NCBI RefSeq assembly: GCF_002356115.1
Contig: NZ_AP014836.1
Span: forward strand, 558,001-622,000
DNA from: Candidatus Nitrosoglobus terrae
Lineage (GTDB): Bacteria; Pseudomonadota; Gammaproteobacteria; Nitrosococcales; Nitrosococcaceae
Length of the DNA stretch: 64,000 bases
Direction of reading: 5' to 3'
Position numbers and translations under genes: made by a program. The notes beneath the pieces were generated by a model, which ran no database searches, was not told the origin of the DNA, and was given only the letters and a program-made list of their open reading frames with translations. Shown here piece after piece: positions 3,557 through 30,663 of the stretch. The number at the start of each line of letters is the position of its first letter. Position 1 is the stretch's first letter.

Positions 3557-4084
3557 ATGTCACGGAGAATTCTTAAACGCTATCTACCAAAACCTCAATA
3601 TATTAAGGAACATAAACATCTACGTCACTTTGGGGAGTGGTTATCCACCCCTAATCTGTGGTATCTCAACCGTCGATCGGTAGCTTGGGCAGTAAGTATC
3701 AGCTTATTTATTGCTTTTATCCCGGTACCCGGTCATACGCTGCTGGCAGTGATTGCTGCCATATGGGCGCGAGTTAATCTGCCAGTGTGTATCTCAGTCG
3801 TTTGGTTTAATAACCCTTTTACGATGGGGCCAATATATTTTTTTAACTATAAGGTTGGGGCTTGGTTACTAGGAAGCCCGATTGAAATGATAGAATTTGA
3901 AGCTACTTGGCAATGGCTAAAAACAGGGTTTCTTACTATTTGGCAGCCGTTTCTACTGGGATCTGTAGTGGTAGGTTTAGTAGCGAGTATTCTCGGTGGT
4001 TTAGGTATGAATTATTCATGGCGATTAGGGGTATATCGACATTGGAAAGAACGAGTGCGTAAAAGGATAGTACCGCAGACGTAG
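3557..4084 (+). CDS. DUF2062 domain-containing membrane protein
   Basis: A 175-residue protein matching the DUF2062 pattern: a basic N-terminus, the conserved stretch WYLNRRSVAWAVSISLFIAF followed by PVPGHTLLA, then VWFNNPFTMGPIYFFNYKVG, and a second hydrophobic block (about 128-150) before a basic tail (RKRIVPQT). At least two to three transmembrane helices are evident. The function of DUF2062 is not established. It is commonly found beside comEC in gammaproteobacteria, as here, where the two are divergent with about 100 bases between them. It converges with lolD, 17 bases away. Confidence 0.88.
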   Translation: MSRRILKRYLPKPQYIKEHKHLRHFGEWLSTPNLWYLNRRSVAWAVSISLFIAFIPVPGHTLLAVIAAIWARVNLPVCISVVWFNNPFTMGPIYFFNYKVGAWLLGSPIEMIEFEATWQWLKTGFLTIWQPFLLGSVVVGLVASILGGLGMNYSWRLGVYRHWKERVRKRIVPQT

Positions 4085-4101
4085 GTAAGAGGTGAGTTAT
4101 T

Positions 4102-4806
4102 TTAGGGTAATAATCCTTGCACTAACTGGCCGTCTACTAAAGTAAGAACCCGATTCATTTGCATGGCTAAATGAGGATCATGAGTAACTACTATCAGTGC
4201 TGTATTTAAATCTCGATTAAGATCCAGCATTAAGTTAAAAATTTGTTCAGCATTTGCCCGATCTAAGTTACCGGTGGGTTCATCTGCTAGTACACAATTA
4301 GGATCGGTAACAAGTGCTCGTGCTACTGCAGCCCGCTGACGCTCACCCCCTGATAATTTTCCTGGTTTGTGATGAAGGCGCGCCTCTAATCCAACCCGCT
4401 CTAGGAGTGTTTTTGCTTTTTTTCGTGCTTTTGCTGCTTTAGCGCCTGCAATAAGTAAAGGTAGAGCAACATTCTCTAGGGCAGTGAATTCTGGTAGTAA
4501 GTGGTGAAATTGGTAGACAAATCCTAGGGTACGGTTACGTAGCTGTCCGCGCTTTACATCGCTAAGCTGAGCCATATTCTGGTTAGCAACCCAGACTTCG
4601 CCTCGAGTTGGGTGATCTAGCCCTCCCAATAAGTGGAGTAAGGTACTTTTGCCAGATCCAGAGGTTCCTACAATAGCTATTCGTTCTCCTTGGGTTACAG
4701 ACAAATTTATCTCTCGCAGCACTTCTATCAAGAGATAACCATCAGCGAAGCTTCGGCCTAATTTGTGGCAACTTAAGATTATCTCTGTAGGTGAACTAGA
4801 ACTCAC
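4102..4806 (-). CDS. lolD: lipoprotein-releasing system ATP-binding protein LolD
   Basis: ATPase of the Lol complex, which extracts outer-membrane lipoproteins from the inner membrane and passes them to LolA. The 234-residue protein has all ABC motifs: Walker [10 protein letters not shown] (47-55), Q-loop region near [11 protein letters not shown], signature LSGGERQ (151-157), Walker [13 protein letters not shown] (171-182) and a switch His in VVTHD. These are typical of the LolD/MacB ATPase class. The gene is the last in a leftward group with the Lol permease, but a DUF2853 gene stands between them, which is unusual because lolC and lolD are normally adjacent. Confidence 0.95.
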
Positions 4807-4922
4807 GGGAGAGCAATTACTTCCTGATTATCTAGTATGAATATAAATAAGACACATTTCCCTTTTTTGCCTAGAAGCAAGAAGGATAATTTTTTATGGA
4901 AAATCGTAAAAATTATATTTGA

Positions 4923-5261
4923 TTATATATACAATGCTTCTTTATTAAATCTTTTAATAAGCAAGGCATAGAATAAGGTTCTGTATTTTTTTCGATTGGC
5001 GCTGCCTAATTTTTCTATTACTTCTTTTATGGCTTGGTCTAATTCAGGATCCTCTTTAAGCCCCAACTTACCAATTAAAAAATTTTTCCTGACAGTTCCT
5101 AACTCATCTTGGCTAGTAGAAGAAACAAGCTCCGAATTGGCATTATAAATAGAGGGTCCTAGGCTTTTGGCGACTGAAACTAGAAAGTCATGAGAGATAT
5201 CTAAATTTAATCTTTTAACTTCTGCGGAATATTTATCGATAGCTTCATCAAATTTGCTCAT
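4923..5261 (-). CDS. DUF2853 family protein
   Basis: A 112-residue soluble protein. It matches the pattern of the DUF2853 family: an N-terminal helix (MSKFDEAIDKYSAEVKRL), the central SLGPSIYNANSE, then VRKNFLIGKLGL and a C-terminal block with SANRKKYRTLFYALLIKRF. No signal peptide or membrane segment is seen. The biological role of the family is unknown to me. It is placed between the LolC/E permease gene (120 bases upstream) and lolD (116 bases downstream). Those gaps are large for an operon, so it may have its own promoter. Confidence 0.85.
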   Translation of the reverse strand: MSKFDEAIDKYSAEVKRLNLDISHDFLVSVAKSLGPSIYNANSELVSSTSQDELGTVRKNFLIGKLGLKEDPELDQAIKEVIEKLGSANRKKYRTLFYALLIKRFNKEALYI

Positions 5262-5380
5262 AGGGGAAAATTAAAATTTAATATAGGTAGAAATTTATAA
5301 TTAAACGCTATTAGTTCAGCACTCTACCCCTATAAAACTGTAAAATCAATCAATTAATGTAGTCATTTCATTTACAGATA

Positions 5381-6628
5381 TCATACATAGCGTAGCGCTT
5401 CTGCGGGTTGAGTTCGGGCTGCTCGCCAAGCAGGATATAGGGTAACTAGAACACAGAGTACAAAAGAGGCACCGCAAATAGTAGTGACATCGTTCCAGCT
5501 TAGCTCTGAAGGTAACTCGCTAATATAATAAATTTCTGGAGGTAGGAATTGCACACCAAAAAGGGATTCGATATGGGGCACTACGGTTTCTACGTTAGAG
5601 GCAAGCGCAACTCCGCCTATCATGCCTAAGAATGTGCCAATAAGACCAATAATTGTCCCCTGAACCATAAAGACTCCCATGATGCTTGCCGGAGTCGCTC
5701 CCAAAGTGCGTAGGATAGCGATATCTGCTTGTTTATCAGTGACGACCATGACTAAGGTAGAGACGATGTTAAAAGCGGCCACAGCAACAATGAGAAACAG
5801 GATGACAAACATAACTGTTTTCTCAGTTTTTAAGGCGCGGAAAAAATTGGCGTGTTGGTAAGCCCAGTCTGCTGTTTGGTAGTTATCGGGAAGTGTTTCC
5901 CGTAATTCGTAAGCAATTTCAGGGGCTCTAAATAGATCGTGGAGCTTAAGGCGAAGCCCGCTGATTTTTCCTTGGAGGCGAAACAGTGTTGCCGCATCTT
6001 CTATATTCATGATTGCAAGGGCACTATCATATTCATACATCCCTACTTGGAAAATTCCGCTTACTGTTACCTGCTTAATTCGTGGGATAATTCCCGCTGG
6101 GGTAGCTGTTGCTTGAGGGGTTACCACGATAATTTTATCGCCAACAAAAACACCTAAGGAGCGAGCTAAGTCTATACCTAATACTATCTGGAAGCTTTTT
6201 GGGCGTAAGCTATCTAAGTTACCTATCTTTATTTTGCTACGGATATCATCGACTTGATCTTCTTGATCTAACTGAATTCCTCGAATTAACGTGCCTTGTA
6301 CCCGACTACTGTGAGTAACCATGGCTTGCCCCTCTACAAAGGGAGCAATACCGGCTATTCTGGGATCCGCTTTTACTTTAGCTTTTAGCTCCTGCCAGTT
6401 TTTCAGTGTTCCATCATGACCTGTGATAGTGACATGAGCAATCGTACCTAAAATACGAGTACGTAGCTCTTTCTCAAAACCGTTCATCACTGAGAGCACG
6501 GTAATTAAAGCTGCTACACCTAAGGCTACTCCCAGCATAGAAGTAAGAGAGATAAAAGAAATAAAATAATTATTCTGCTTAGCTCGAGTGTAGCGTAGAC
6601 CTATATAAAGGGATAAAGGTTTAAACAT
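5381..6628 (-). CDS. lolC: lipoprotein-releasing system permease, LolC/LolE family
   Basis: Transmembrane subunit of the Lol ABC transporter. The 415-residue protein has the family topology: one N-terminal transmembrane helix (about 21-48, after YIGLRYTRAKQ), a large periplasmic domain (about 50-270) and three C-terminal helices (about 272-300, 320-345, 380-400). The stretch FISLTSMLGVALGVAALITVLSVMNGFE is a hallmark of LolC/E. Only one permease gene is present here, whereas E. coli has lolC and lolE flanking lolD. A single permease (often called LolF) is known in many bacteria, so lolC is a family-level name. rpiA lies 25 bases upstream in the same direction. Confidence 0.93.
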   Translation of the reverse strand: MFKPLSLYIGLRYTRAKQNNYFISFISLTSMLGVALGVAALITVLSVMNGFEKELRTRILGTIAHVTITGHDGTLKNWQELKAKVKADPRIAGIAPFVEGQAMVTHSSRVQGTLIRGIQLDQEDQVDDIRSKIKIGNLDSLRPKSFQIVLGIDLARSLGVFVGDKIIVVTPQATATPAGIIPRIKQVTVSGIFQVGMYEYDSALAIMNIEDAATLFRLQGKISGLRLKLHDLFRAPEIAYELRETLPDNYQTADWAYQHANFFRALKTEKTVMFVILFLIVAVAAFNIVSTLVMVVTDKQADIAILRTLGATPASIMGVFMVQGTIIGLIGTFLGMIGGVALASNVETVVPHIESLFGVQFLPPEIYYISELPSELSWNDVTTICGASFVLCVLVTLYPAWRAARTQPAEALRYV

Positions 6629-6653
6629 GATAGGCTAAAGATCGTAGCGTTTA

Positions 6654-18092: not shown

Positions 18093-21000
18093 ATGTCTAT
18101 GGTCTCTATTTGCCGCCGCTATTTTTTTATAATTTTAGGGATATTAACCGGTTGTATCCTACTTGCGGGAGGCGCACTATGGGCAGTCATAGACAATAAC
18201 CCAGTGATGGCATCCCGCTGGTTGAGCACTTTTCTAAACCAAGAAGCCCATATTGATGCTATTGATCTACGATGGGAGGGATTTAGACCTCAATTAAAAT
18301 TAACAAATATACGTATAACAGATTTAAAAACAAGACGGCAGCTACTAGCGTTTAAAGAAATTTCCTTTGCTGCCGGATCTGCTGCTAAGGATAAATCACA
18401 GCACGTTATTATCACCGGAGGGCAGCTTATAATAGAACAAAAACCAGAAGGATGTTTTCGTATCCTTGGTTTGCAGAACTTGAACACCCCTTGCTCCCAT
18501 CATTCTTATCCCCCTTGGTGGTTATCTAAATTTGATCAATTAGCTTTAGTAGATATTATTATTCTCTGGAACGCTCTAGGCTTAGAGGGAAAGCCTATGG
18601 GTCTAAAGATAGAGAGCCTGCGTTTGGTTAATAACGAAGATATTTATCGAATTGAAGGATCAGCAATCTTATCTAAGGGGCTTGGTAAGAGAATTAAGAT
18701 CAAAGCAAAATTCGATGGTAAAGAGATCCAAGATCCTAAAAGTGGCCTCCTATATGTTAAAGGGGAAGGCTTACAATTGGAACCATGGCAAGCCTATAGC
18801 TTCTTTAATGGACTACATTTTACTCGAGGTACGGGTGATTTGGAGTTAACACTACGTTGGGATAAAGCTGCTTTGCGTCAATCGTTAGTTAAGTTTGACT
18901 GGAAGGAGCTAGGTATTTCTGGAAATAGTCAAGCTGTTGGTATTGCTAATAAAATCTCTTTTCAGCAGTTGACAGGCGTTGCTCATTACCAGCAGCTCAC
19001 AAAAGGATGGTCGATTACAGTCCCTCGCCTTTCAGTAATCCGAGGTAATCAAGCTTGGCCACCGACCTCATTGCAAATTAAGGTAGAAAAAGATCCAATC
19101 CTGAAGTTACAGGGTCAGTTTAAATTTCTACGTCTCCAAGATATTATTCCTATATACCAACTGGGTGCCCAGACAGATTCTCGATTAAGCTTATTACTAG
19201 CAAAAATTCAACCAGCAGGAGATCTACGGGATATCAAAATAATTCTACCGTTTGGAGAGACACAAGCAAAAGATTGGGAGATTTTTGCTACGGCAGAGAA
19301 TTTTGGGACTCAGCCTTGGCAGCATTGGTTAGGTTGTCAAGGCTTATCGTTTAAGCTGCAGCTGGCAGGTGGTTCAGGACAGTTGCATATGGATAGTCAT
19401 AATGCTCGATTGTTCAGTAATTATTTAGAGCAACCCGTAGCGTTGAATACTTTTCAAGGGAAAGTGATTTGGCGGCTAAAGAACGGGGGTTGGCAGATCT
19501 TAGGAGATAATATTCAGCTGCAAAATCAAGATTTAGCCTTAGCTGGATCGTTACAGCTTAATAAAGGTTCAGGGGAAAATACCCCTTATTTAGATCTATC
19601 TTTGATACTACAAGAGATGAATCTAACTACTTTATCTAAGTATCTTCCGGCAAGTATCATGAAGCCTCACTTAGTGCAGTGGCTGGATCAGGCATTTCTT
19701 AGTGGCCAGATAAAAACAGGCAGTCTTCTATTTCAAGGGCCTGTAGATTATTTTTCTTCCGATAGAACTCAGGGGCAATTTACAGCAGATTTAGATTTAT
19801 CTGGGGTGACGTTACATTATAGTGATCAGTGGCCGGTGTTTAAGCAGATAGATGGCCATTTTCATAGTGATGGTCAAAAGATTATCGTTAATGTAGCTAG
19901 AGGTAAGTTATTTAATGCCAACATAATGGGCATTACTGCGGAGATTACTGATCTAAGTGGGAACGTTGTCCCTTTAAAGGCGGTAGGCCAAGCTCTAGGA
20001 GATTCAAGGGATGTCCGTGATTTTATCCAGCAAAGTCCTTTAAAGGAAGAATATGGTGGGTTTATTGAACGCGTAGAAGTGCATGGGAATACCCATATAA
20101 ATTTAAGCCTAGGATTAGCTATAAGAGGGGATGCAAGACATCCTAAGGTAGATGGAGAATTGGTTTTTACTGATGCTTATTTACGTCAGCTAGAAAATCT
20201 TCGCTTAGAATTTACAGCAATTCGGGGTGGATTACACTTTACTGAGAAAAAACTAGTCTCAAAAAACTTGACTGGTCAGCTTCTTGGCCGGCCAGTTAAA
20301 GCAGATCTTTCCAGTTTGCCTGGAAAATCTGGGAGCGATGGTAGGGTTGAGCTAAGTCTTAGTGGCCGTATGGAAGCGCAAGCGCTAGCAAAAAAATGGT
20401 TTTCATCTTGGTCACCTTGGTTACAAGGCAGCGCTAATTTTACTACAAAAATGATATTACAGAATGGTAAAAAATTTGCGGTTACGATGGCGCAGGTGAG
20501 CTCTGATTTAAAGGGGATTAAAGTAACGTTACCCCCACCGCTGGAAAAGCCGGCTGATCAGGTACAAAAGCTATTTTTAGAGATTTATGAGCCTATTGAA
20601 GATAAAAGAAGATTTGAAATAGCCTATGGAGAAAAGCTGCAGGGGATATTTGAAGCTGAAGATGGAGAGCTGCTTGATCCCATAAGAGGGGAGATACGGG
20701 TTGGCGGAGATCCCCCTCTACTGCCTGATCAAGGCGTTCAGCTTGTAGGCGTATTGCCTAATCTTTTGGTAGATGCTTGGCAGCAAGTGCTAATAAAAGT
20801 TGCTCAGGCAGGTTCTATGGGAAATAAGCTCAAGGCTATTATTCTACAGGCAGATCAGGCTGAGCTATTTGGGTGGCATTTTAAGAAGATCATCATAAAG
20901 GCAAATAGATCCTTGGCTCACCACTGGCAGGCTCAGGTTACTGCTCCTAATTTGAGGGGAGTTATAACTATACCTGATACTGGATCAAATCAGCCTTTAG

Positions 21001-21926
21001 CAATAAATTTGGATTATTTACGCTTACGTCCAAAATCATCATCTAATGAGCGCCTAGGTACGGACTCTAATTTGCAACCTGCTCTTAATCAGGATAGCGA
21101 TCCTAATCAATGGCCTTCTATTGATCTGGTATGCCGCCAATGCTGGTATGATGACTATAATTTAGGTTTAGTACAGGCCCATACCAGTACCTATGAAGGA
21201 GGGTTATATTTAAGGCAATTGGAAATTATATCGGCAGCTGCACAGATTAAAGCTAGTGGAGATTGGATACTTAATGGAAGAACTCAGCGCTCTTCTTTAG
21301 AGTTTAAAGTATATAGCCCAGAGCTTGGGCAATTATTGACGAGTTTTGGCTACCGAGCCAATATTATTGGCGGGGAAACGGAAATTGATGTTGCGGCTGA
21401 TTGGCCGGGTTCGCCTACATCACTAACCTCTGAGCTATCCTCTGAACGGTTAAATGGTACTGTGCAGCTGAAAGTAGGTAAAGGGCGTCTGCTAAGTGTA
21501 GAGTCTGGGCCAGGCCAATCGCCTAATATATTGAACGTTTCGGCTTTTCACCGGCGATTACCACTAGATTTTAGCGATGTTTTTGGTGAAGGTCTTCCTT
21601 TCGATCAGATTGAAGGCGGTTTATCTTTTAACCAAGGGGATCTTTATTTTAACAAATTTATTATAGAAGGCCCGATGGCTCAGGTTCGAGCAAATGGAAA
21701 GATCGGTTTTGGATCTCAAAATTATAATTCTAAGCAAACTATAAGGGTAGCTCCGAGCCTACCTTTAGTTGGTTCGATGGTTGGTGGGCCTATAGGTCTA
21801 GGTGTGGGTACTATTCTAATGCTAACTGATAAATTAATCGATAAGATATTTGGAGCTCAGTTTGGACAGTTGATGGCTTATTATTATCAGGTCTCAGGTT
21901 CTTTACCTAAACCGGCAAAGCAGTGA
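18093..21926 (+). CDS. yhdP: YhdP family protein (AsmA-like, envelope lipid transport)
   Basis: A very large envelope protein of about 1277 residues with an N-terminal membrane anchor (roughly the first 12-35 residues, hydrophobic FFIILGILTGCILLAGGALW) and a long periplasmic beta-rich body. YhdP, TamB and YdbH bridge the envelope and move phospholipid to the outer membrane in E. coli; this is family knowledge. Supporting features are the DUF3971/AsmA-like pattern, a C-terminal AsmA-like domain (FDQIEGGLSFNQGDLYFNKF) and the rng-yhdP-nitrilase order. The ATG at 18093 is used; a TTG four codons upstream at 18081 is an alternative. It follows rng after 26 bases. Confidence 0.92.
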   Translation: MSMVSICRRYFFIILGILTGCILLAGGALWAVIDNNPVMASRWLSTFLNQEAHIDAIDLRWEGFRPQLKLTNIRITDLKTRRQLLAFKEISFAAGSAAKDKSQHVIITGGQLIIEQKPEGCFRILGLQNLNTPCSHHSYPPWWLSKFDQLALVDIIILWNALGLEGKPMGLKIESLRLVNNEDIYRIEGSAILSKGLGKRIKIKAKFDGKEIQDPKSGLLYVKGEGLQLEPWQAYSFFNGLHFTRGTGDLELTLRWDKAALRQSLVKFDWKELGISGNSQAVGIANKISFQQLTGVAHYQQLTKGWSITVPRLSVIRGNQAWPPTSLQIKVEKDPILKLQGQFKFLRLQDIIPIYQLGAQTDSRLSLLLAKIQPAGDLRDIKIILPFGETQAKDWEIFATAENFGTQPWQHWLGCQGLSFKLQLAGGSGQLHMDSHNARLFSNYLEQPVALNTFQGKVIWRLKNGGWQILGDNIQLQNQDLALAGSLQLNKGSGENTPYLDLSLILQEMNLTTLSKYLPASIMKPHLVQWLDQAFLSGQIKTGSLLFQGPVDYFSSDRTQGQFTADLDLSGVTLHYSDQWPVFKQIDGHFHSDGQKIIVNVARGKLFNANIMGITAEITDLSGNVVPLKAVGQALGDSRDVRDFIQQSPLKEEYGGFIERVEVHGNTHINLSLGLAIRGDARHPKVDGELVFTDAYLRQLENLRLEFTAIRGGLHFTEKKLVSKNLTGQLLGRPVKADLSSLPGKSGSDGRVELSLSGRMEAQALAKKWFSSWSPWLQGSANFTTKMILQNGKKFAVTMAQVSSDLKGIKVTLPPPLEKPADQVQKLFLEIYEPIEDKRRFEIAYGEKLQGIFEAEDGELLDPIRGEIRVGGDPPLLPDQGVQLVGVLPNLLVDAWQQVLIKVAQAGSMGNKLKAIILQADQAELFGWHFKKIIIKANRSLAHHWQAQVTAPNLRGVITIPDTGSNQPLAINLDYLRLRPKSSSNERLGTDSNLQPALNQDSDPNQWPSIDLVCRQCWYDDYNLGLVQAHTSTYEGGLYLRQLEIISAAAQIKASGDWILNGRTQRSSLEFKVYSPELGQLLTSFGYRANIIGGETEIDVAADWPGSPTSLTSELSSERLNGTVQLKVGKGRLLSVESGPGQSPNILNVSAFHRRLPLDFSDVFGEGLPFDQIEGGLSFNQGDLYFNKFIIEGPMAQVRANGKIGFGSQNYNSKQTIRVAPSLPLVGSMVGGPIGLGVGTILMLTDKLIDKIFGAQFGQLMAYYYQVSGSLPKPAKQ

Positions 21927-22002
21927 ATTTAAAAAGATTGGGATATAAAGCAAAAATTATGTCTTTATATACACATAAAATTAAGAGAATAGGGGAGGCT
22001 GC

Positions 22003-22830
22003 GTGAGTATTGTTGCCGCTATTCAAATGGCATCTGGCCCTAATGTAGGGGCTAATTTATTAGAGGCAGAACGGCTTATCACTCAAGCGGCTGCTGAAGG
22101 AGCGAATTTAGTTGTACTTCCAGAAAATTTTGCTTTAATGGGAGAAAAAGATGGATCTTTGCTAAGTATTGTAGAAGAGGAAGGTACTGGCCCTCTTCAG
22201 AGTTTTTTAGCGCAGCAAGCAGCAAGAAATAAACTTTGGTTGGTAGGTGGTACTATTCCATTACGGGCTATTGCAACGAGTAAGGTTCGTGCTGCATGTT
22301 TGCTTTTTGATGCCAATGGCAAGTGTGTAGCCCGTTATGATAAATTTCATTTATTTGATGTTGTTCTTCCTGGGGGAGAGGAAAGATACTGCGAATCTTT
22401 AACTATAGAGCCTGGGCAAAATATAGTAGTTGCTGATACTCCTTTTGGGCAGATAGGGCTTGCAATCTGCTATGATTTACGTTTTCCGGAGCTGTTTCGC
22501 GCTTTAGTGGAGCAAGGAATGGAAGTTCTAGTTTTACCGTCAGCGTTTACTGCAATTACAGGTAAGGCGCATTGGGAGCCTTTAGTACGAGCACGTGCTA
22601 TTGAAAATCTCTGCTATGTTGTGGCTGCGGGTCAAGGTGGCTTTCATATTAGTGGGCGTACAACTTATGGAGATAGCATGATTGTTGATCCTTGGGGTGT
22701 GGTATTAGCCCGACTTCCTCGAGGCTCTGGGGTGATCACCGCTGAATTGGATTCTGATCGATTGCATAATACTCGCCGTAATTTTCCTGCCATCGAACAT
22801 CGACGTTTTACTTGTAAATTAGTCGGATAG
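22003..22830 (+). CDS. carbon-nitrogen hydrolase family protein (Nit-type omega-amidase/deaminated glutathione amidase-like)
   Basis: Nitrilase-superfamily amidase of 275 residues. The catalytic triad is visible: Glu41 in VLPENFALM, Lys114 in YDKFHLFDV and Cys156 in AICYDLRFPELFR. The overall pattern (LFDANGKCVARYDKFHLF, PGGEERYCES) is that of the Nit1/YbeM branch, which hydrolyses deaminated glutathione as metabolite repair; the substrate here is inferred. The start is a GTG at 22003 preceded by AGGGGAGG, a strong ribosome-binding site. The gene commonly follows yhdP in gammaproteobacteria; tldD, often next, is replaced here by a PP-loop protein. Confidence 0.92.
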   Translation: MSIVAAIQMASGPNVGANLLEAERLITQAAAEGANLVVLPENFALMGEKDGSLLSIVEEEGTGPLQSFLAQQAARNKLWLVGGTIPLRAIATSKVRAACLLFDANGKCVARYDKFHLFDVVLPGGEERYCESLTIEPGQNIVVADTPFGQIGLAICYDLRFPELFRALVEQGMEVLVLPSAFTAITGKAHWEPLVRARAIENLCYVVAAGQGGFHISGRTTYGDSMIVDPWGVVLARLPRGSGVITAELDSDRLHNTRRNFPAIEHRRFTCKLVG

Positions 22831-22910
22831 ACTGAGGCTAAAGTAATTTATAAATCATTATGTAAATCAGGCAGATCTAATTATTCTTTAGTAGATGATG
22901 CAGAAAAATT

Positions 22911-23954
22911 ATGAAGAAACAGCGTAAAGCCGTAGCCCTGATTTCAGGAGGATTGGATTCCATGCTTGCTGCTAAGGTTATGCTGGCGCAAGGTATCCAT
23001 ATAGAAGGAATCAATTTTTTCACTGGGTTTTGTGTGGAAGGGCATACACACGCTATTCGTAATAAAGATAAAAGCCGAACTAAGCGTAATAATGCATTAT
23101 GGGTGGCCGAGCAACTAGGTATTAAGCTGCATATAGTTGATGTGATTACTGAATATAAAAAAGTAGTTCTCAATCCAAAACATGGCTACGGGGCTAACCT
23201 TAATCCTTGTTTGGATTGTAAATCTTTCATGGTAGCTAAAGCGCTGACGTGGATGAGAGAGCAAAATTTTGATTTTATCGTAACGGGTGAGGTTGTAGGT
23301 CAGCGGCCTAAATCACAGCGATCAGATACCATGAAAATTGTAACCCAAGAGTCTGGTGCAGGTGATTTATTATTACGGCCGCTTTGTGCTAGAAATTTAT
23401 CTCCTACTGTTCCAGAACGTGAAGGATGGGTTAACCGGGATAAACTTTATGATTTTAGCGGTCGTTCGCGTAAACCACAAATGGCGCTTGCTGCGTATTT
23501 TGGAATTGAAAACTACGCGCAACCTGCGGGAGGCTGTTGTTTTCTAACAGATGCTAGTTATACAGCTAAGCTGAATGATTTATGGCGAGCACGTCATACT
23601 CGGGACTACGATTTGGATGATATTATGTTGCTTAAGGTGGGGCGGCACCTTCGACCACAGCCTCATTTTAAACTTATTATCGCTCGTGATGAGGGGGAGA
23701 GTAATTATCTGGAGGGATACGCTAAAGAGTTTATTCATTTGCGAACTCTCAGTCATAGCGGCCCACTAGCATTAATTGATGGAGATCCAAAAGAGGAGGA
23801 TCTTATCTTAGCCAGTCAATTAGTAGCACGCTTTAGTCAAGGACGGGAAGCATTACAAGTGCAGATAACTGTAGCCCATCCAAATAAAGCAGTGCGGATG
23901 CTGGAAGTCACCCCTCTTGCTAGTGAATCTATACCCCAAGAGTGGTACGTTTAA
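22911..23954 (+). CDS. MnmA/ThiI-like PP-loop protein, probable tRNA thiolation enzyme
   Basis: A 347-residue protein with an N-terminal PP-loop ATP pyrophosphatase domain: ALISGGLDSMLAAKV carries the SGGxDS motif (about 11-17), and NPCLDCKSFM (about 101-110) is the adenylation-domain cysteine pair seen in tRNA 2-/4-thiolation enzymes. Later come TGEVVGQRPKSQRSD and PAGGCCFLTD with two adjacent cysteines. The C-terminal half (about 215-340, RHLRPQPHFKLIIARDEGESNYL) looks like an NFACT-R/DUF814-type RNA-binding module. Enzymes of this layout are usually annotated as MnmA-like or ThiI-like. A TusA-type sulfur carrier gene follows after 12 bases, which supports a sulfur-transfer role. The exact modified base is unknown. 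Confidence 0.82.
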   Translation: MKKQRKAVALISGGLDSMLAAKVMLAQGIHIEGINFFTGFCVEGHTHAIRNKDKSRTKRNNALWVAEQLGIKLHIVDVITEYKKVVLNPKHGYGANLNPCLDCKSFMVAKALTWMREQNFDFIVTGEVVGQRPKSQRSDTMKIVTQESGAGDLLLRPLCARNLSPTVPEREGWVNRDKLYDFSGRSRKPQMALAAYFGIENYAQPAGGCCFLTDASYTAKLNDLWRARHTRDYDLDDIMLLKVGRHLRPQPHFKLIIARDEGESNYLEGYAKEFIHLRTLSHSGPLALIDGDPKEEDLILASQLVARFSQGREALQVQITVAHPNKAVRMLEVTPLASESIPQEWYV

Positions 23955-23966
23955 ATTTTCCCTATT

Positions 23967-24197
23967 ATGCATACTTTAGATGCACGGAATTTACTATGCC
24001 CGCTACCTGTCATCCGAACTCAGCAGAAAGTGAGCGAGCTAATGCCAGGGGATATACTGGAAGTCATCTGTACCGATCCTGGAGTGTTAAACGATATCCC
24101 TGCTTGGTGTCGGATTAATGGCCATCATGTGCTTGAAGCTACTGAATGGGGTCGAGAAGTACGGATACGTTTAGAGGTGAATAAACTAACTACATAA
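23967..24197 (+). CDS. TusA-family sulfur carrier protein
   Basis: A 76-residue protein with the TusA fold signature: HTLDARNLLCPLPVIRTQQ contains the CPxP motif with the persulfide-carrying cysteine (Cys11), followed by MPGDILEVICTDPGVLNDIPAWC and a C-terminal strand. TusA-like proteins relay sulfur as a persulfide to thiolation enzymes or in sulfur oxidation. It lies 12 bases downstream of the PP-loop protein gene and is probably its sulfur donor; that partnership is inferred from adjacency. Whether it is the cell's main TusA cannot be told from this window. Confidence 0.9.
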   Translation: MHTLDARNLLCPLPVIRTQQKVSELMPGDILEVICTDPGVLNDIPAWCRINGHHVLEATEWGREVRIRLEVNKLTT

Positions 24198-24251
24198 GTT
24201 TTGATCATAGAATATTTCGAATAAATTGCTCTAGAAGCTGGAGAGATCTTG

Positions 24252-25661
24252 ATGGCCATTGATGATATTTTAAAAATGATTAAAGAAGAGGAGGTAAAAT
24301 TTGTTGATTTCCGCTTTACGGATACTAGAGGGAAAGAACAGCATCTCTCTACGCCTGCTTATAGATTAGATAAGGAAATATTTAGGGACGGTAAGATGTT
24401 TGATGGTTCCTCTATTGCGGGGTGGAGGGTAGTTCATGATTCAGATATGATTTTAATGCCAGATCCTGAGACAGCGGTTATTGATCCTTTTATGGAAGAT
24501 AAAACCTTAGTGTTACGCTGCGATATTATGGAGCCCGCTACTCTCCAAGGCTATAGCCGTGATCCTCGCTCTATTGCAAAGCGAGCTGAAATTTATTTGA
24601 AATCTACCGGTATTGCAGATACTGCTTACTTTGGCCCAGAGCCTGAGTTTTTTGTATTAGATGATGTCCGTTGGGGCGTTGATATGTCTGGGGCTTTTTA
24701 TAAGATTGACGCTGAAGAATCCCACTGGAATTCTCAACGGGTTTATGAGAGGGGAAATATTGGGCATCGGCCTAGCATTAAAGGGGGTTATTTTCCAGTA
24801 CCTCCGGTAGATTCCTTACAGGATCTTCGCTCTACTATGTGCCTTATTATGGAGCAAATGGGTTTACCTGTAGAAGTACATCATCACGAATCAGCTACAG
24901 CGGGACAATGTGAGATTGGAACTCAGTTTAATACGCTTGTACGCCGAGCGGATGAATTACAGATTCTAAAATACGTTGTGTTAAATGTAGCCCACTCTTT
25001 TGGTAAAACGGCTACTTTTATGCCTAAGCCTTTAGTAGGAGATAATGGTAGTGGTATGCATGTCCATCAATCTTTAGAGAAAAATGGGGAAAATCTTTTC
25101 TCTGGGAGTAAGTATGGTGGTTTATCTGAAATTGCTTTGTACTACATAGGGGGTATTATTAAGCATGCCCGAGCGTTAAATGCTTTTACCAATGCTTCAA
25201 CTAACTCGTATAAACGCTTAGTACCTGGTTTTGAAGCACCAGTATTATTAGCTTATTCGGCCCGCAATCGATCCGCCTCAATTCGGATACCCTATGTTAC
25301 CAGCCCCAAAGCGCGACGTATTGAGGTTCGATTTCCTGACGCAACTGCTAATCCTTATTTTGCCTTTGCTGCTATGCTTATGGCCGGACTTGATGGTATT
25401 CAAAATCAAATCCATCCTGGGGATCCTATGGACAAAAATCTTTATGACTTACCCCCAGAAGAGATGAAGGATATTCCTACGGTTTGTTTATCTCTTGAGC
25501 ACGCTTTGGAAGCGCTAGATCGAGATCGGGGATTCCTCAAGGAAGGAGAAGTATTTACGAATGATGCTATTGATGCTTATATCTCACTCAAGATGGAAGA
25601 TGTGACTCGCCTGCGAATGACGACGCACCCTATTGAATTTGATATGTATTATAGTAGTTAA
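24252..25661 (+). CDS. glnA: type I glutamine synthetase
   Basis: Condenses glutamate and ammonia with ATP; central to nitrogen assimilation. The 469-residue protein has the full GS pattern: [15 protein letters not shown] near the N-terminus, [19 protein letters not shown], the ATP-site region [16 protein letters not shown], and the adenylylation loop NLYDLPPEE with the regulatory Tyr near 398, so it is probably controlled by GlnE. The ATG at 24252 is chosen; a TTG immediately precedes it. No sigma-54 promoter (GG-N10-GC type) was seen in the 54 bases after the TusA gene. The PII gene glnB is elsewhere in this window at 51.8 kb. Confidence 0.97.
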
Positions 25662-25772
25662 CGGTTAAGGTTTTACTATTAAGCTATTAATATGGTTTTT
25701 ATGTAACGTCTTTAGCTTGAATAGCTCTAGTTTTTAGTAGACAATACTTACTTAAAAAAGGAGGAAATAATA

Positions 25773-26048
25773 ATGAAATTACCGTATTTATCAATAGCAT
25801 TAGCTGCGTTAGTATCATTTTCTTTGGCATCATTTTCTGTATCTGCAGAAGAAACCGTTGCTGAAAAAGCTGAAGCGAAAATAAAGGATACAAAAAGAGC
25901 GGCTGAACAAGCAGCTGACCGTGCAGAAGAGGCAAAATGCACAGATGGTACTATTAAATGTTTAGGTGAAAAAATTAAGCACCGGACAGGCGAAGCCTAT
26001 GACTCGGTTAAGGATAAGAGCGTTGAGCTCAAGCATAAGATGGATTAA
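25773..26048 (+). CDS. small secreted helical protein, unknown function
   Basis: A 91-residue protein with a clear Sec signal (about 1-25, cleavage expected after VSA in SFSVSAEE) and a mature region that is highly charged and alanine-rich with heptad-like spacing (AEKAEAKIKDTKRAAEQAADRAEEA), suggesting an amphipathic helix or coiled coil. Two cysteines (KCTDGTIKC) sit in the middle and could form a disulfide in the periplasm. A very strong ribosome-binding site (AAAGGAGG) precedes the ATG by about 8 bases, so high expression is likely. Product not recognised. A terminator lies about 105 bases downstream. Confidence 0.75.
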   Translation: MKLPYLSIALAALVSFSLASFSVSAEETVAEKAEAKIKDTKRAAEQAADRAEEAKCTDGTIKCLGEKIKHRTGEAYDSVKDKSVELKHKMD

Positions 26049-26152
26049 CTAGGTAATCATAAAAATTTTTATAAAATTGATCGCGCGTAGATTTCTTTTT
26101 AATCTTTTTATCCTATAGATATTAGGTGAGTTAGTTTTTTTCGGCTACACAT

Positions 26153-26178
26153 AGGGGCTTATGTTCGGCCCCTTTTTT
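26153..26178 (+). terminator. rho-independent terminator after the small secreted protein gene
   Basis: A GC-rich stem AGGGGC (26153-26158) pairs with GCCCCT (26168-26173) around a 9-base loop and is followed directly by a run of T residues (26173-26178). This fits an intrinsic terminator on the plus strand for the glnA/small-protein transcript. Confidence 0.75.
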
Positions 26179-26265
26179 ATGAGTATTGCCATAAAAAACT
26201 TGTTCTTAACATATTTTATGTTGCAACACAGATATTAGGGTAAGCCATAAGTAAAGAAAGGTTTT

Positions 26266-26895
26266 ATGCCTATAATTTTTCTTTTACTTAGTTTGATATC
26301 GCTTGTTACAACAGGGGATATCTATAAGTATACCCATCCAGATGGAACAGTTGAATATTCCGATCAACCAAAAAGAGGTGCTATAGAAACGGAGTTAAGA
26401 TTACCTCGGGTCTATGCCCCATTACAACCTAAAGATAAAGACAAAGCTGCTCATGAAGAAACGCCGCCCTTACCACCTCAAGCCGTACCTTCTTATCGGG
26501 TTAGTATTGTGACTCCTCATAACGAAGTTACTATAAGAGAGAATAGGGGTAATGTAGAGGTAGTACTTCAGGTGCAACCGCCCCCTGAAGCTGATTCTGG
26601 CTATACGCTCCAGCTTTTATTAGATGGGAGAGCGGTAAGTAAGCCGCAGAATCGTCTTAGATATCCATTAACAGATATAGATCGCGGGGTTCATACGTTA
26701 CAAGCTGGGTTATTTGATCCATCAAGAATACTAGTAGCAAAATCTGATTTAATTACCTTTTATATGCAGCGTATGTCCATATTATTTCATAATACTGGCA
26801 CTAACAATCCTGGAGGTGTACAGATGGCACCCAGAGCACCTCAAATGCCAAAAATGCCGGGGCCTCCTAACTCTGGCGGCGCTGTTCCTCCATAG
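26266..26895 (+). CDS. DUF4124 domain-containing protein
   Basis: A 209-residue exported protein. The N-terminus (about 1-17) is a signal-like hydrophobic segment, followed at once by the DUF4124 signature DIYKYTHPDGTVEYSDQPKRGA. A middle domain (about 85-165, YRVSIVTPHNEVTIRENRGNVEV) resembles a beta-sandwich, and the tail is rich in Pro, Met and Gly (APRAPQMPKMPGPPNSGG). DUF4124 proteins are common, mostly uncharacterised periplasmic proteins of beta- and gammaproteobacteria and are often found near glnA, as here. A ribosome-binding site AAAGAAAGG lies upstream. Confidence 0.85.
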   Translation: MPIIFLLLSLISLVTTGDIYKYTHPDGTVEYSDQPKRGAIETELRLPRVYAPLQPKDKDKAAHEETPPLPPQAVPSYRVSIVTPHNEVTIRENRGNVEVVLQVQPPPEADSGYTLQLLLDGRAVSKPQNRLRYPLTDIDRGVHTLQAGLFDPSRILVAKSDLITFYMQRMSILFHNTGTNNPGGVQMAPRAPQMPKMPGPPNSGGAVPP

Positions 26896-27465
26896 ATTAC
26901 CTTTAGTTAGCAGGTTATTTTATTATCCACTAAAGGGTTGGTATTTTTTTTTAATTAAGTATAAGGCTGAGCAGATAAGAGGGAGCCATAGTATTTTTGA
27001 GTAGATTTATAGTGATCAGGCTTAGTTAGCCAACCAATAAAATTAATCAATATAATTAAAAGGACAATAATAATAAAACTTTTAGGTAATTTCATAAGTT
27101 TGTATTTTTAAAATAATGCTGGACTTATTGATTAAGTATCAGTGTGTACTTTTTACGCTTACTTGAATTTTGCAGTTGCTAAAAAACGAGTTCCTATAGG
27201 TTAATAATATAGTACGATTAAAGAGAATAGGCTTATATAAAATATCTTACTATATCATAAAAGGAATACCCTATTTAGGCGACTGTTGCGAGAAGATGGC
27301 TATTGAATCGATGCTGAATATTTCCCAGTAGTTAGGCTAAGAGCCTATTTTAGAGTTCTTTATAGCCTCTCGTATATAGTGGTTAAATTTTCTTGCCGGA
27401 TACGGATCTATTGGTGTTGGCCGTAGCATCTTGCTTATTCTGGGAGCCTTTACAATCATGGTGCT
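26896..27465. other. 570-base gap between the DUF4124 gene and mutM
   Basis: An AT-rich stretch between the plus-strand DUF4124 gene and the minus-strand mutM. It contains one credible short leftward open frame (26955-27095, listed separately). The right part (about 27270-27469) has a plus-strand frame with several stops whose last 28 codons resemble a membrane helix; this may be the remnant of a lost gene. No RNA gene or strong terminator was recognised. Confidence 0.5.
26955..27095 (-). CDS. possible 46-residue single-pass membrane protein
   Basis: A short frame read leftward from an ATG at 27095 encodes 46 residues: a basic start (MKLPKS), a strongly hydrophobic stretch (FIIIVLLIILINFIGWL, about 7-23) and a polar tail with several Lys and Tyr. 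This has the look of a small bitopic membrane protein. No good ribosome-binding site is visible and the region is AT-rich, where such frames occur by chance. Product not recognised. Confidence 0.3.
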   Translation of the reverse strand: MKLPKSFIIIVLLIILINFIGWLTKPDHYKSTQKYYGSLLSAQPYT

Positions 27466-28281
27466 CTAATATTGACATTGGCTACAATAGTAGCTTGATC
27501 GTTGACCAATACGGTCTAAGCGGATAGGGCTACCACAAATAAAGCACGGATGGGTTGCACGACCGTAGACTTTCAGTTGGTGGGAAAAATAACCCGGATT
27601 ACCATCGCTATTTAAAAAATCTCGTAAGGTTGTTCCACCAGCTTGAATGGCTTTAGATAATATTGTTTTAATAGCTTCAGCCAAAATCTGGTAACGGGCC
27701 AAGCTAATTTGGCTTACTATTCGCTGAGGATGGATATTAGCTTGAAATAATGCTTCATTAGCATAAATGTTTCCAACTCCTACCACTATTTGATTATTCA
27801 TAATAAAGGTTTTGATTGTACTACGCTTGCCATTAGATTTCTGGGATAGATAATAGCCATTAAATGAAGGATCCATAGGTTCTAATCCTAAGGATTTTAG
27901 TAATGGGTGGTATAAAGGATTTTCTTCGGTCCAGAGTATTGCCCCAAAACGGCGAGGATCATGAAAGCGTAAGCAATTATCATTATTTAAGATGATATCG
28001 ACGTGATCATGTCTTTTCGGTGGTGTATTAGTCGGTACAATACGTAAATTACCAGACATACCTAAGTGGAGAATAATAGTGCCTTGAGAGCAATTTAATA
28101 GGAGATATTTACCTCGTCGCTGTACAGATAGGATATATTGACCCACTAAACGTTGAGGTAAAAACGCAGGAACTGTCCAGCGTAAGCGTGGCTCTCGAAT
28201 TAGAATGGTGCGTATTTGGTATTTTACTATATGCGGTTCGATGCCACTACGGGTGGTTTCAACCTCTGGTAGTTCGGGCAC
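27466..28281 (-). CDS. mutM: bifunctional DNA-formamidopyrimidine glycosylase/AP lyase
   Basis: Base-excision repair enzyme removing 8-oxoguanine and formamidopyrimidines. The mature N-terminus PELPEVETT provides the catalytic proline (Pro2) and Glu3. Other marks are HLGMSG near residue 71, VGNIYANEALF (about 168-178) and the C-terminal zinc finger CFICGSPIRLDRIGQRSSYYC followed by SQCQ. The 271 residues match Fpg. It lies 24 bases after the DUF4340 gene and may be co-transcribed with the Gld-like transporter genes. Confidence 0.97.
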   Translation of the reverse strand: MPELPEVETTRSGIEPHIVKYQIRTILIREPRLRWTVPAFLPQRLVGQYILSVQRRGKYLLLNCSQGTIILHLGMSGNLRIVPTNTPPKRHDHVDIILNNDNCLRFHDPRRFGAILWTEENPLYHPLLKSLGLEPMDPSFNGYYLSQKSNGKRSTIKTFIMNNQIVVGVGNIYANEALFQANIHPQRIVSQISLARYQILAEAIKTILSKAIQAGGTTLRDFLNSDGNPGYFSHQLKVYGRATHPCFICGSPIRLDRIGQRSSYYCSQCQY

Positions 28282-28305
28282 TTTAGCTGCTTATTTAATA
28301 ATAGC

Positions 28306-29232
28306 TTATTTTTTATTATCACTAGATAATTTATTGTTACCACTATCGCCTTGCGGCAGCTCGAATAGCGTTTTCCATGCAGGGGCGGGGAGATTATATT
28401 GAACACCGAAATCTGATCGCACTAGTACTAATTGCGGCAAATCTGAAAGAAGATCAAGATGAATTGGAGAGGCCCCTTTTTGTTCTATTTCGATAGTAGC
28501 CAATACTGTTTTATCTCCTTTAAGGCCTATTTGTTGTACTGTATACTGCTGCCATGCGTTTATTAAGGTAGCAATTGTTTCACTAGAGGGTGGATTATCT
28601 ATACCTATACCCTCAGCAACCCATTGACCTTCTTTTTGGTATAGAGTAATAACGTTTTTAGGGTTGACATTTGGATTACCATTACTGATGGTAACCTGAG
28701 GGATCTGCAGTCTGCTAATAGGGTGATGATCTGGTAGTAATGCTGGATCGAGAAATTTAGGAGCTGCTGAAGTAATGGTATGAAAAGCAGTATTATCAAT
28801 GAGGTGGACGGTATCTGCTAGTAAAACATAGCGATTTTGGTTTAGAGGTGCAGTTACGCCAAAATCAATAGCCAAATCATTTAGGTATAAACGGTTTTTA
28901 GGAGAACTTAAACCCAATTTAGTTAGATCTAGGTTTTGCACAGGATAATGGCTATAGCTTTTAGTTTTAGCCACGTCTAACAGGGTTTTAACCACTAACA
29001 TATTAGCTGGACCGTGGATAGGGGCAGTAAGGAGCCATTTTCCTTCTTTGCGCTCTAAGTGAATTTCCTCATGTGATTCATTATGGATAACCCGAATAGC
29101 TTCAATCTTATCGGAGCTTATTGAAGTAAGCGGGGGCGAATCTGCCTTAGAGCCAGGCTCATAGAAAAATACCAGCCCTAAGACGATAACAATAGCTGTC
29201 AGAGCCAGATTAAGTAAGGTACGCGTATGCAT
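28306..29232 (-). CDS. DUF4340 domain-containing protein
   Basis: A 308-residue envelope protein with one N-terminal membrane helix (about 6-24, LLNLALTAIVIVLGLVFFY) and a periplasmic part. The repeated pattern, such as ISSDKIEAIRVIH followed by WLLTAPIHGPANMLVV, is that of DUF4340, a domain that accompanies GldG-type ABC systems. The gene follows the GldG-like gene by 18 bases on the same strand, completing the usual ATPase-permease-GldG-DUF4340 set. The molecular role of the domain is unknown. Confidence 0.88.
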   Translation of the reverse strand: MHTRTLLNLALTAIVIVLGLVFFYEPGSKADSPPLTSISSDKIEAIRVIHNESHEEIHLERKEGKWLLTAPIHGPANMLVVKTLLDVAKTKSYSHYPVQNLDLTKLGLSSPKNRLYLNDLAIDFGVTAPLNQNRYVLLADTVHLIDNTAFHTITSAAPKFLDPALLPDHHPISRLQIPQVTISNGNPNVNPKNVITLYQKEGQWVAEGIGIDNPPSSETIATLINAWQQYTVQQIGLKGDKTVLATIEIEQKGASPIHLDLLSDLPQLVLVRSDFGVQYNLPAPAWKTLFELPQGDSGNNKLSSDNKK

Positions 29233-29250
29233 AATAAAATAATACTTAAC

Positions 29251-30663
29251 TTAACGTTGACGTCGTCGCCACCAGATCAATATTCCAGCCCCTAATAGCG
29301 CTGCGGGGAGGATAAAAAGAAATATGATGCCTATCGCTGATGAGGCGGCAGGCGAAAGCTGGAGTGTTGTATCTGGGCGTATTCGTGCTGGAACAGTAAT
29401 AAGACGATCTTCATGAGTTAGCCAGTTGATAAGGCTAAGACCCAAATCTAGATTGGAGCCATTGCCAAGATGGCTGTTAGAAATGAAATCTCCGTCACCA
29501 ATGATAACTACCCGCTGCTGATCATTATTTTTAGACCGATTGTTACCTTGATGGTTGGATTTGTCTTTATCAGCGACTTCTTTTTCCAAGAGAGATCGTT
29601 CTCGGTTTAAGGCTAACCCAATAGTAAGTGGCCCTAATATATCCTGCTCCTTATCATACTCAATTTTCTTTCCCAGCTCGGAGGTCTCTACCCAAGATCG
29701 AGATAGTGTGGTTAATATAGGTACCGACTGCCATTGACTACCTTTAATGACCTCTAATGCAGCTGACTGAGGAAATAAGGTGATAGATGTTAGAGAATCA
29801 GTAATAGGATGGTTCCCGTATTTTGGAACTAAAGCGAAGGTAGCATTACCGCGACCAAGCAAAATTTGAGCGCTAGGGTCAATAATTACTCCAGGTAGAA
29901 CCTTGATGCTAAGATCTTCTGCTAGGGTCTCAAGATTATGCAGAGAGCCGGGATCAATAAGCCAAAGTAAATGACCCCCATTTTTAATATAGTCACGAAT
30001 TAGATCTACCTCCCCAGGCAGAAAATTGGTCTGCGGGCTGGCTATAATTAAAACTTGATTATGATTATTTGGAATCTGAGATTGAGCTGATAGATTTAGA
30101 GTTTGAATATGAAACCCCTTGGTTTCTAGCTGCTTGGTAAAATTCTCTAAAGCAAAGTTAGCATTCCCGCGAGGATCTCGTTCACCATGCCCCTCAAGGA
30201 AAATAACCCAAGCATTCTCACTACGAGCAACCCGATTGAAGGCATTGGTTAGATCTTTTTCAGATAAATCTTGCAGTTTTTCCTGCCGCCCATCTTTTTT
30301 AATAACAAGCTCTGTTTGGAACCTAACTCCTAGCTCACGAACTTTATCGGGATCTGTTTCTGGGTTGATAAATTCAAGCTTTAGATCAGGCTTATAATGC
30401 TGATAGCGATTAATAAGCTTTGTGATTTTCTCCTTAGTGTTAGGATCTTGAGCAAAGCTTATAACGGTAATTTGGCCTTCAAGTTGTTTCAAAAGTACTT
30501 GGCTCGCCTTGGAAAGGGTATTACGGCCGCTAGCTGTCCAGTCAGCTTGGTAATTGTAACGCATGCTGAGTACAGCAATGAGACCAATAGCTGTTAAAAA
30601 CAACAGAATAAAAAGAAGATTTTGTAATCGTATATACCAATGGGTTTTTCGAGTAACACGCAT
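29251..30663 (-). CDS. GldG-family ABC transporter auxiliary protein
   Basis: A 470-residue protein with membrane helices at both ends (about 14-34 and 440-464) enclosing a large periplasmic domain. Family marks are NTLSKASQVLLKQLEGQITV, VIFLEGHGERDP (about 155-166), and FLPGEVDLIRDYIKNGGHLLWLIDPG, typical of the GldG/ABC_transp_aux family. The family was named for Bacteroidota gliding motility but is widespread in proteobacteria that do not glide, where its substrate is unknown. It lies between the ABC permease gene and the DUF4340 gene in one leftward operon. Confidence 0.9.
   Translation of the reverse strand: MRVTRKTHWYIRLQNLLFILLFLTAIGLIAVLSMRYNYQADWTASGRNTLSKASQVLLKQLEGQITVISFAQDPNTKEKITKLINRYQHYKPDLKLEFINPETDPDKVRELGVRFQTELVIKKDGRQEKLQDLSEKDLTNAFNRVARSENAWVIFLEGHGERDPRGNANFALENFTKQLETKGFHIQTLNLSAQSQIPNNHNQVLIIASPQTNFLPGEVDLIRDYIKNGGHLLWLIDPGSLHNLETLAEDLSIKVLPGVIIDPSAQILLGRGNATFALVPKYGNHPITDSLTSITLFPQSAALEVIKGSQWQSVPILTTLSRSWVETSELGKKIEYDKEQDILGPLTIGLALNRERSLLEKEVADKDKSNHQGNNRSKNNDQQRVVIIGDGDFISNSHLGNGSNLDLGLSLINWLTHEDRLITVPARIRPDTTLQLSPAASSAIGIIFLFILPAALLGAGILIWWRRRQR

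Follow-up and report, generated by a model that had tools for sequence, protein, structure and literature searches.

The best reading of the gene at 22911..23954 (+) of the window (the whole stretch of 64,000 nucleotides that was analyzed) is a non-orthologous replacement of ThiI that makes 4-thiouridine (s4U) in tRNA. ThiI is the textbook s4U enzyme. The gene encodes a 347-amino-acid (aa) protein, an NFACT-R_2/PP-loop fusion and proposed tRNA 4-thiouridine synthase, and we consider it probable that this protein takes the place of ThiI and is fed by a TusA of its own. The reading draws on the domains, predicted fold and conserved residues of the protein, its pairing with TusA, its exclusion with ThiI and its link with DUF1722/RudS, as they were observed within the sampled genomes.

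Gene and domain composition

The open reading frame (ORF) begins with ATG. Pfam analysis indicated that the front half of the protein matches tRNA_Me_trans (PF03054, 48.5 bits) and ThiI (PF02568, 44 bits), and that residues 244-346 (23640..23948, +) match NFACT-R_2 (PF18297) with 118.3 bits against a cut-off of 26.9. The latter domain, also recovered by VIA-align, is the proposed RNA-binding part. The Pfam search, read up to E 10, gave no THUMP family, and no Pfam match to NFLD-THUMP, rhodanese, NFACT-N or a coiled-coil part was seen in this protein, so that its resemblance to NFACT proteins is confined to the C-terminal domain. Among the NCBIfam models listed, none exceeded its cut-off for the 347-aa protein or for the neighboring 76-aa TusA; the enzyme scored 44.0 bits with TIGR00342 (ThiI, cut-off 264.5) and 40.7 bits with TIGR00420 (MnmA, cut-off 236.95), which rules out an ordinary member of either family. 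The initial annotation had described a 347-residue PP-loop protein with an NFACT-R-type C-terminus that is neither canonical MnmA nor canonical ThiI, and these descriptions were borne out, as were its motifs SGGLDS, NPCLDCK and GGCCFL, which lie at residues 12-17, 98-104 and 207-212.

Close homologues, with E-values of 2e-127 or lower, were present in 53 of 59 genomes, comprising that of the window and its relatives, which shows that the 347-aa ORF is not a chance frame. The 53 include one relative (G034:C3:384885-385930) in which the gene looks broken, as its matches contain stops, and leave out another (G057) with a weak partial match only, probably to MnmA. The named close homologues belong to Gammaproteobacteria, such as Methylobacter, Sedimenticola and Chromatiales. 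All 46 members of set A2 matched PF18297, PF02568 and PF03054 at E 0.001.

The genome that carries the window is 2.02 Mb long and 99.98% complete. By Pfam, the upstream neighbors of the gene are RNase E/G, YhdP and a carbon-nitrogen hydrolase, and those downstream are glutamine synthetase, DUF4124 and a formamidopyrimidine-DNA glycosylase. There were no tRNA genes in the window, no matches to Rfam families in 20000-30000 and no repeats in 22830-24260, and promoter- and terminator-like sites in 22700-24400 did not rise above shuffles. A phage gene was ruled out, as no match was obtained in 50,697 phage records. A plasmid gene was likewise rejected; the 72,556 plasmid records gave only 3 matches, all from Fusobacteriota and 34-36% identical, and one of these sits on a 2.1 Mb record.

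Predicted structure and conserved residues

The AlphaFold2 model of the protein had a mean pLDDT of 89.4. When its PP-loop part was compared by VIA-align, the ThiI structures 4kr6_A (Z 15.2, rmsd 2.6, 168 aligned, 26% identity) and 2c5s (Z 14.6, rmsd 2.6, 160 aligned) were level with YcfA 9kq6_G (Z 15.4), and LarE and the MnmA structures 2hma (Z 13.5, rmsd 3.1, 172 aligned) and 2deu (Z 13.2, rmsd 3.0, 176 aligned) were placed somewhat below ThiI. Foldseek, ordered by E-value, put LarE and MnmA 2deu ahead of ThiI 2c5s, and its matches included TtuA 5mkp and 5b4f. As the two programs rank these structures differently, the fold favors neither ThiI nor MnmA. The C-terminal domain was matched to RqcH 8s1u_H (Z 14.2, rmsd 2.2, 103 aligned) and FBPS 5h3w_A (Z 14.1, rmsd 2.2, 105 aligned). 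A profile search of solved structures returned MnmA, ThiI and, weakly, RqcH (E 0.015). The predicted fold is thus that of a PP-loop thiolase joined to NFACT-R, and the model makes no choice between the two families.

The alignment of 167 proteins indicated where conservation is concentrated. In the PP-loop motif SGGLDS (22944..22961, +), which by analogy with the family would bind ATP, residues S12, G13, G14, D16 and S17 were kept in 166 of the 167 proteins, with 1 gap. The CxxC pair C100 and C103 (23208..23219, +), within NPCLDCK, and C210 of the GGCC stretch at residues 207-210 (23529..23540, +) were kept in 167/167, so that this is not a chance observation for the protein. C41 and C209 were found in 166/167 (one gap each) and C159 in 146/167. 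Two Fusobacteriota homologues (34-36% identity) retained NPCIDC and one Cys in GGGCLL, which points, by eye, to C100, C103 and C210 as the core trio.

The position of these cysteines was compared by hhalign with a ThiI alignment (9 of the 10 ThiI sequences fetched) and a MnmA alignment (10 sequences). C210 aligned with C344 of ThiI as well as with the second catalytic Cys of MnmA, in GICFIG, and C103 with the first, in NPDILCN, so that both catalytic positions of MnmA (C102 and C199 in E. coli) are occupied. The E-value with MnmA (7.8e-13) was as good as that with ThiI (1.2e-12). The motif TGEVVGQRPKSQ at residues 125-136 (23283..23318, +), in which E127 and Q136 were kept in 167/167 proteins, is of the ThiI type TGExxGQxxSQ; together with a following LRPL it resembles TGESLGQVSSQ...LRPL of ThiI and not TGHY of MnmA, and both motifs are absent from the consensus of the MnmA alignment.

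Pairing with a TusA-type carrier

A second ORF (23967..24197, +; ATG start) follows after 12 bases on the same strand and encodes a TusA-type sulfur carrier of 76 aa (PF01206, 78.4 bits), as the initial annotation had noted. This carrier is the proposed dedicated sulfur donor. It has the CPxP cysteine of the family, in a CPLP motif (23997..24008, +) with Cys11 as the expected persulfide site, and it scored 48.7 bits with the TusA equivalog NF001423, under the cut-off of 78. Over 90% of the 143 adjacent TusA proteins that were collected conserve LCP, and a TDPG...DIPAWCRINGH pattern is seen among them. As to the earlier view that the unit may be distinct from the Tus relay, the analysis covered TusA genes: the carrier is itself a TusA homologue, and a second TusA, which differs from the adjacent one, is encoded elsewhere in the genome.

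The survey read 167 loci, one of them that of the window; 166 had room to see the downstream gene, and in 143 of these TusA lay directly downstream on the same strand, which argues that the gene pairing is not due to chance and agrees with the description of the enzyme as paired with its own carrier. By set, where one species may occur twice, this was so in 30/30 relatives, 27/29 loci of the class, 68/80 named genomes and 18/27 loci of the phylum. In 88 of the 143 loci, the gene and tusA share 13 bases, a pattern suggestive of coupled translation. The automatic count missed TusA in 23 of the 166 loci; in four of them (L067, L043, L085 and L165) tusA is adjacent by coordinates, in a longer overlapping ORF that the length filter of the neighbor count had removed, and in 3 others TusA was within 571-755 bases. 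The phylum loci came mostly from other classes (25/27); here the automatic count found the pair kept in 17/25, and the proteins aligned from this group were 48-55% identical to the window protein. It suggested that there is a functional tie and not inherited gene order alone.

The genes beyond the pair were also inspected. Behind tusA, a cation-efflux-type gene starts about 230 bases after the enzyme gene in many of the named relatives; this was the case in 49 of the 80 named loci (L067-L146), with PF01545 in the one region that was checked (L070:7257-7868), and glnA lay beyond it in 34 of the 80. In the window, glnA comes directly after tusA (region 24198-24248). The surroundings of two Fusobacteriota homologues were viewed, and no TusA was noticed there. 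One of the distant homologues, on the Haliovirga abyssi plasmid pHIC (298 kb; locus L217), opens a row of three PP-loop genes (4010-6639), the other two of which encode PP-loop proteins with CxxC that are TtcA-like by eye.

Distribution in genomes

The genome of the window harbors a canonical MnmA (445.5 bits, over the cut-off) and no ThiI; its sole TIGR00342 match is the enzyme gene itself, with 43.5 bits against 264.5. The joint presence of thiI and mnmA, which the initial annotation had named as evidence against its proposal, was therefore not found here. In the class sample of 281 genomes (completeness 95 or more; the class is Gammaproteobacteria, judging from the named loci), PF18297 was found in 143 genomes and ThiI in 23, none had both and 115 had neither (Fisher p 2.9e-8, with kinship ignored). 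The 23 consist of 21 genomes over the ThiI cut-off and two slightly under it, G272 (253.8 bits) and G186 (246.5 bits), which were taken as ThiI because nearly the whole profile was covered. In the phylum sample, with 7 positive genomes in common with the class sample, the gene was in 29 of 264 genomes, ThiI in 82, both in 0 and neither in 153. Counted by family, the gene was present in 74 of 149 and ThiI in 19, again with no overlap. MnmA was over the cut-off in 270/281 class genomes, with or without the enzyme gene, and a replacement of MnmA was ruled out by this count. As to whether the pair co-occurs with or replaces thiI and mnmA, these surveys place it alongside mnmA and in the stead of thiI.

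PF18297 alone is no proof of the fusion, since it gave matches in 7 of 14 control genomes, B. subtilis among them, and exceeded the cut-off in 5, perhaps through RqcH-like proteins. The open frames in the class sample were at least 330 aa long, except for the second match of G209 (193 aa) and for G081, one of the 143, where a match of 55 positions, in a frame of 60 aa that contains a stop, is probably a remnant. In a genome of 1.2 Mb (G527:C5:544867-545502), ThiI was matched in part only and with seven stops in frame, probably a case of ThiI loss in a reduced genome. A ThiI query against the 2.1 Mb Fusobacteriota record retrieved nothing; 29 records of the plasmid collection were matched, none of them Fusobacterium. 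This absence fits the exclusion, as one record only.

RudS, which is described in PMC11417400 as removing s4U from tRNA, has DUF1722 as its partner domain. The authors of that report observed RudS in two groups that lack ThiI and suggested that such genomes have differently built ThiI homologues or no s4U (PMC11417400). In our class sample, DUF1722 was found in 66 of the 143 genomes with the gene (61/143 without five partial matches, in G075, G193, G159, G293 and G146), in 12 of the 23 with ThiI and in 0 of the 115 with neither. The phylum sample gave 15/29, 58/82 (four of the 58, G352, G364, G390 and G425, with partial matches only) and 0/153, respectively. Consequently, every DUF1722 genome without ThiI carries the gene, 66/66 in the class (5 with partial DUF1722) and 15/15 in the phylum. 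No DUF1722 was found in 77/143 class genomes with the gene, the window's own genome included. In the 20 DUF1722 loci that were read, taken from 81 gene-bearing genomes and mostly high-scoring rather than random, a single open frame (317-426 aa) contained the three Cys motifs of TudS in 20/20.

The samples follow taxonomy, and kinship was allowed for by family-level counts only. By family, DUF1722 was found in 44/74 with the gene, 10/19 with ThiI and 0/56 with neither. Within mixed families, carriers and non-carriers had DUF1722 in 4/8 versus 0/11 for the gene and in 5/8 versus 0/10 for ThiI, pooled as 9/16 versus 0/21. Genome size is no explanation, as 49/70 genomes with the gene and 0/46 with neither had DUF1722 among those of at least 3.0 Mb, which were picked by hand from rounded sizes. 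In one ThiI genome, the DUF1722 match adjoins thiI on the same strand (G309:C25:27078-28575), a possible case of a synthase beside its eraser. Taken together, the lack of any genome with both the gene and ThiI and the link with DUF1722/RudS suggest that the enzyme makes the same product as ThiI. The initial annotation had not chosen between s4U and s2U, and the phylogenetic profiles point to s4U.

Discussion

We infer the reaction, its site at U8, the TusA donor and a [4Fe-4S] cluster from these observations. In the proposed mechanism, a cysteine desulfurase would load TusA with a persulfide on Cys11, and TusA would hand the sulfur to the enzyme. The PP-loop domain would use ATP to adenylate a uridine, most likely U8, at C4, and sulfur would then displace AMP. 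The NFACT-R_2 domain would bind tRNA, standing in for the NFLD-THUMP part of ThiI, and the partner TusA would do the job of its rhodanese domain, whose Cys456 accepts the sulfur in E. coli ThiI as given in the text seen of PMC5372745. For the last step, C100, C103 and C210 might hold a [4Fe-4S] cluster in which one iron is left open, in the manner of NcsA and related enzymes; alternatively, C210 might carry a persulfide. In the portion of PMC10067955 consulted, the [4Fe-4S] cluster of NcsA is held by a CxxC...C set, Cys142/145/233, and by analogy our enzyme is perhaps [4Fe-4S]-dependent.

The enzyme shares features with several known systems. It resembles ThiI in the PP-loop fold, the TGExxGQxxSQ...LRPL motif, the Cys at the C344 position and the place it takes in genomes, but differs in having CxxC, a C-terminal NFACT-R_2 and a separate TusA gene, and in giving no NFLD-THUMP or rhodanese match. 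With C-type MnmA/TrmU, for which a CxxC...C layout appears in the text seen of PMC11784392, it shares the PP-loop start and a Cys at both MnmA positions; however, NFACT-R_2 is found where MnmA has its C-terminal part, and a canonical MnmA is present besides. The CxxC...C layout also recalls the [4Fe-4S] tRNA thiolases (TtuA, TtcA, NcsA and some archaeal U8-tRNA sulfurases), although these have other RNA-binding parts and TusA is the presumed donor of our enzyme. The NFACT proteins NEMF, RqcH and FbpA have the same fold in their C-terminal domain, whereas the 347-aa protein lacks a match to their NFACT-N and coiled-coil parts and is fused to a PP-loop enzyme. The carrier is like TusA in PF01206 and the CPxP Cys, and unlike it in falling under the equivalog cut-off and in the pattern of the adjacent TusA proteins.

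The nearness to MnmA raises the question of whether the protein is a MnmA paralogue, making 2-thiouridine at U34 or another position as an auxiliary of MnmA. The MnmA-like PP-loop with its PF03054 match, C103 and C210 at the catalytic positions, the layout shared with C-type MnmA, the Foldseek order with 2deu ahead of ThiI and the annotation of one Fusobacterium homologue as MnmA/TRMU family would all agree with it. We regard it as unlikely, because MnmA is over the cut-off in nearly all genomes of the class sample and yet the exclusion is with ThiI, because DUF1722, which comes from an s4U enzyme, tracks the gene, and because the TGExxGQxxSQ and LRPL motifs are of the ThiI type.

The part for RNA recognition is unrelated to THUMP and matches the fold of RqcH, so a modification elsewhere might be imagined, that is, s4U or another thionucleoside in rRNA, at tRNA U9 or at some other site, guided by the NFACT-R domain shared with RqcH. 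This is doubtful: the ThiI exclusion, as well as the tie with an enzyme, RudS, that acts on s4U of tRNA (PMC11417400), argues for the product of ThiI. It could also be argued that the exclusion and the DUF1722 link are a taxonomic accident, in which lineages carry different PP-loop genes by chance, as presence is clustered by family and the samples are not independent. The pattern nevertheless persists over 149 families, inside mixed families and in large genomes alone, and the phylum sample repeats it with 26 further carriers, which makes an accident very improbable. We lean, by a narrow balance, toward the broader proposal that bacteria have a second and widespread way to s4U8 in NFACT-R_2/PP-loop with TusA, a two-gene synthase that uses a [4Fe-4S] cluster, has replaced the single protein ThiI in about half of the sampled class genomes as well as in further classes of the phylum, and makes the s4U on which RudS organisms without ThiI act.

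This combination of domains has been used in print before to mark 4-thiouridylation. Among the papers found, PF18297 was named in one, PMC9239080, where PF02568-PF18297, the same domain order as in our enzyme, marks 4-thiouridylation together with K04487 in Thaumarchaeota; in the passages seen of that paper it is a bare annotation, unlike the present comparison with TusA, RudS and ThiI. The ThiI exclusion, the RudS link and the TusA pairing were not found in the literature searched, and no experimental study of this protein was found among the matches listed. The paper on the NFACT domain by Burroughs and Aravind, of about 2014, reportedly predicted a role in 4-thiouridylation for such fusions.

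If the proposal is true, s4U would be wider than ThiI counts suggest, and the means by which numerous ThiI-less bacteria could form it would be explained. Genes annotated as MnmA/TRMU family, as in Fusobacterium, or as 7-cyano-7-deazaguanine synthase, as in locus L217, would need a new name, a point based on these two annotated Fusobacteriota records. The pair would also offer a compact TusA-fed thiolase that is ready for biochemistry.
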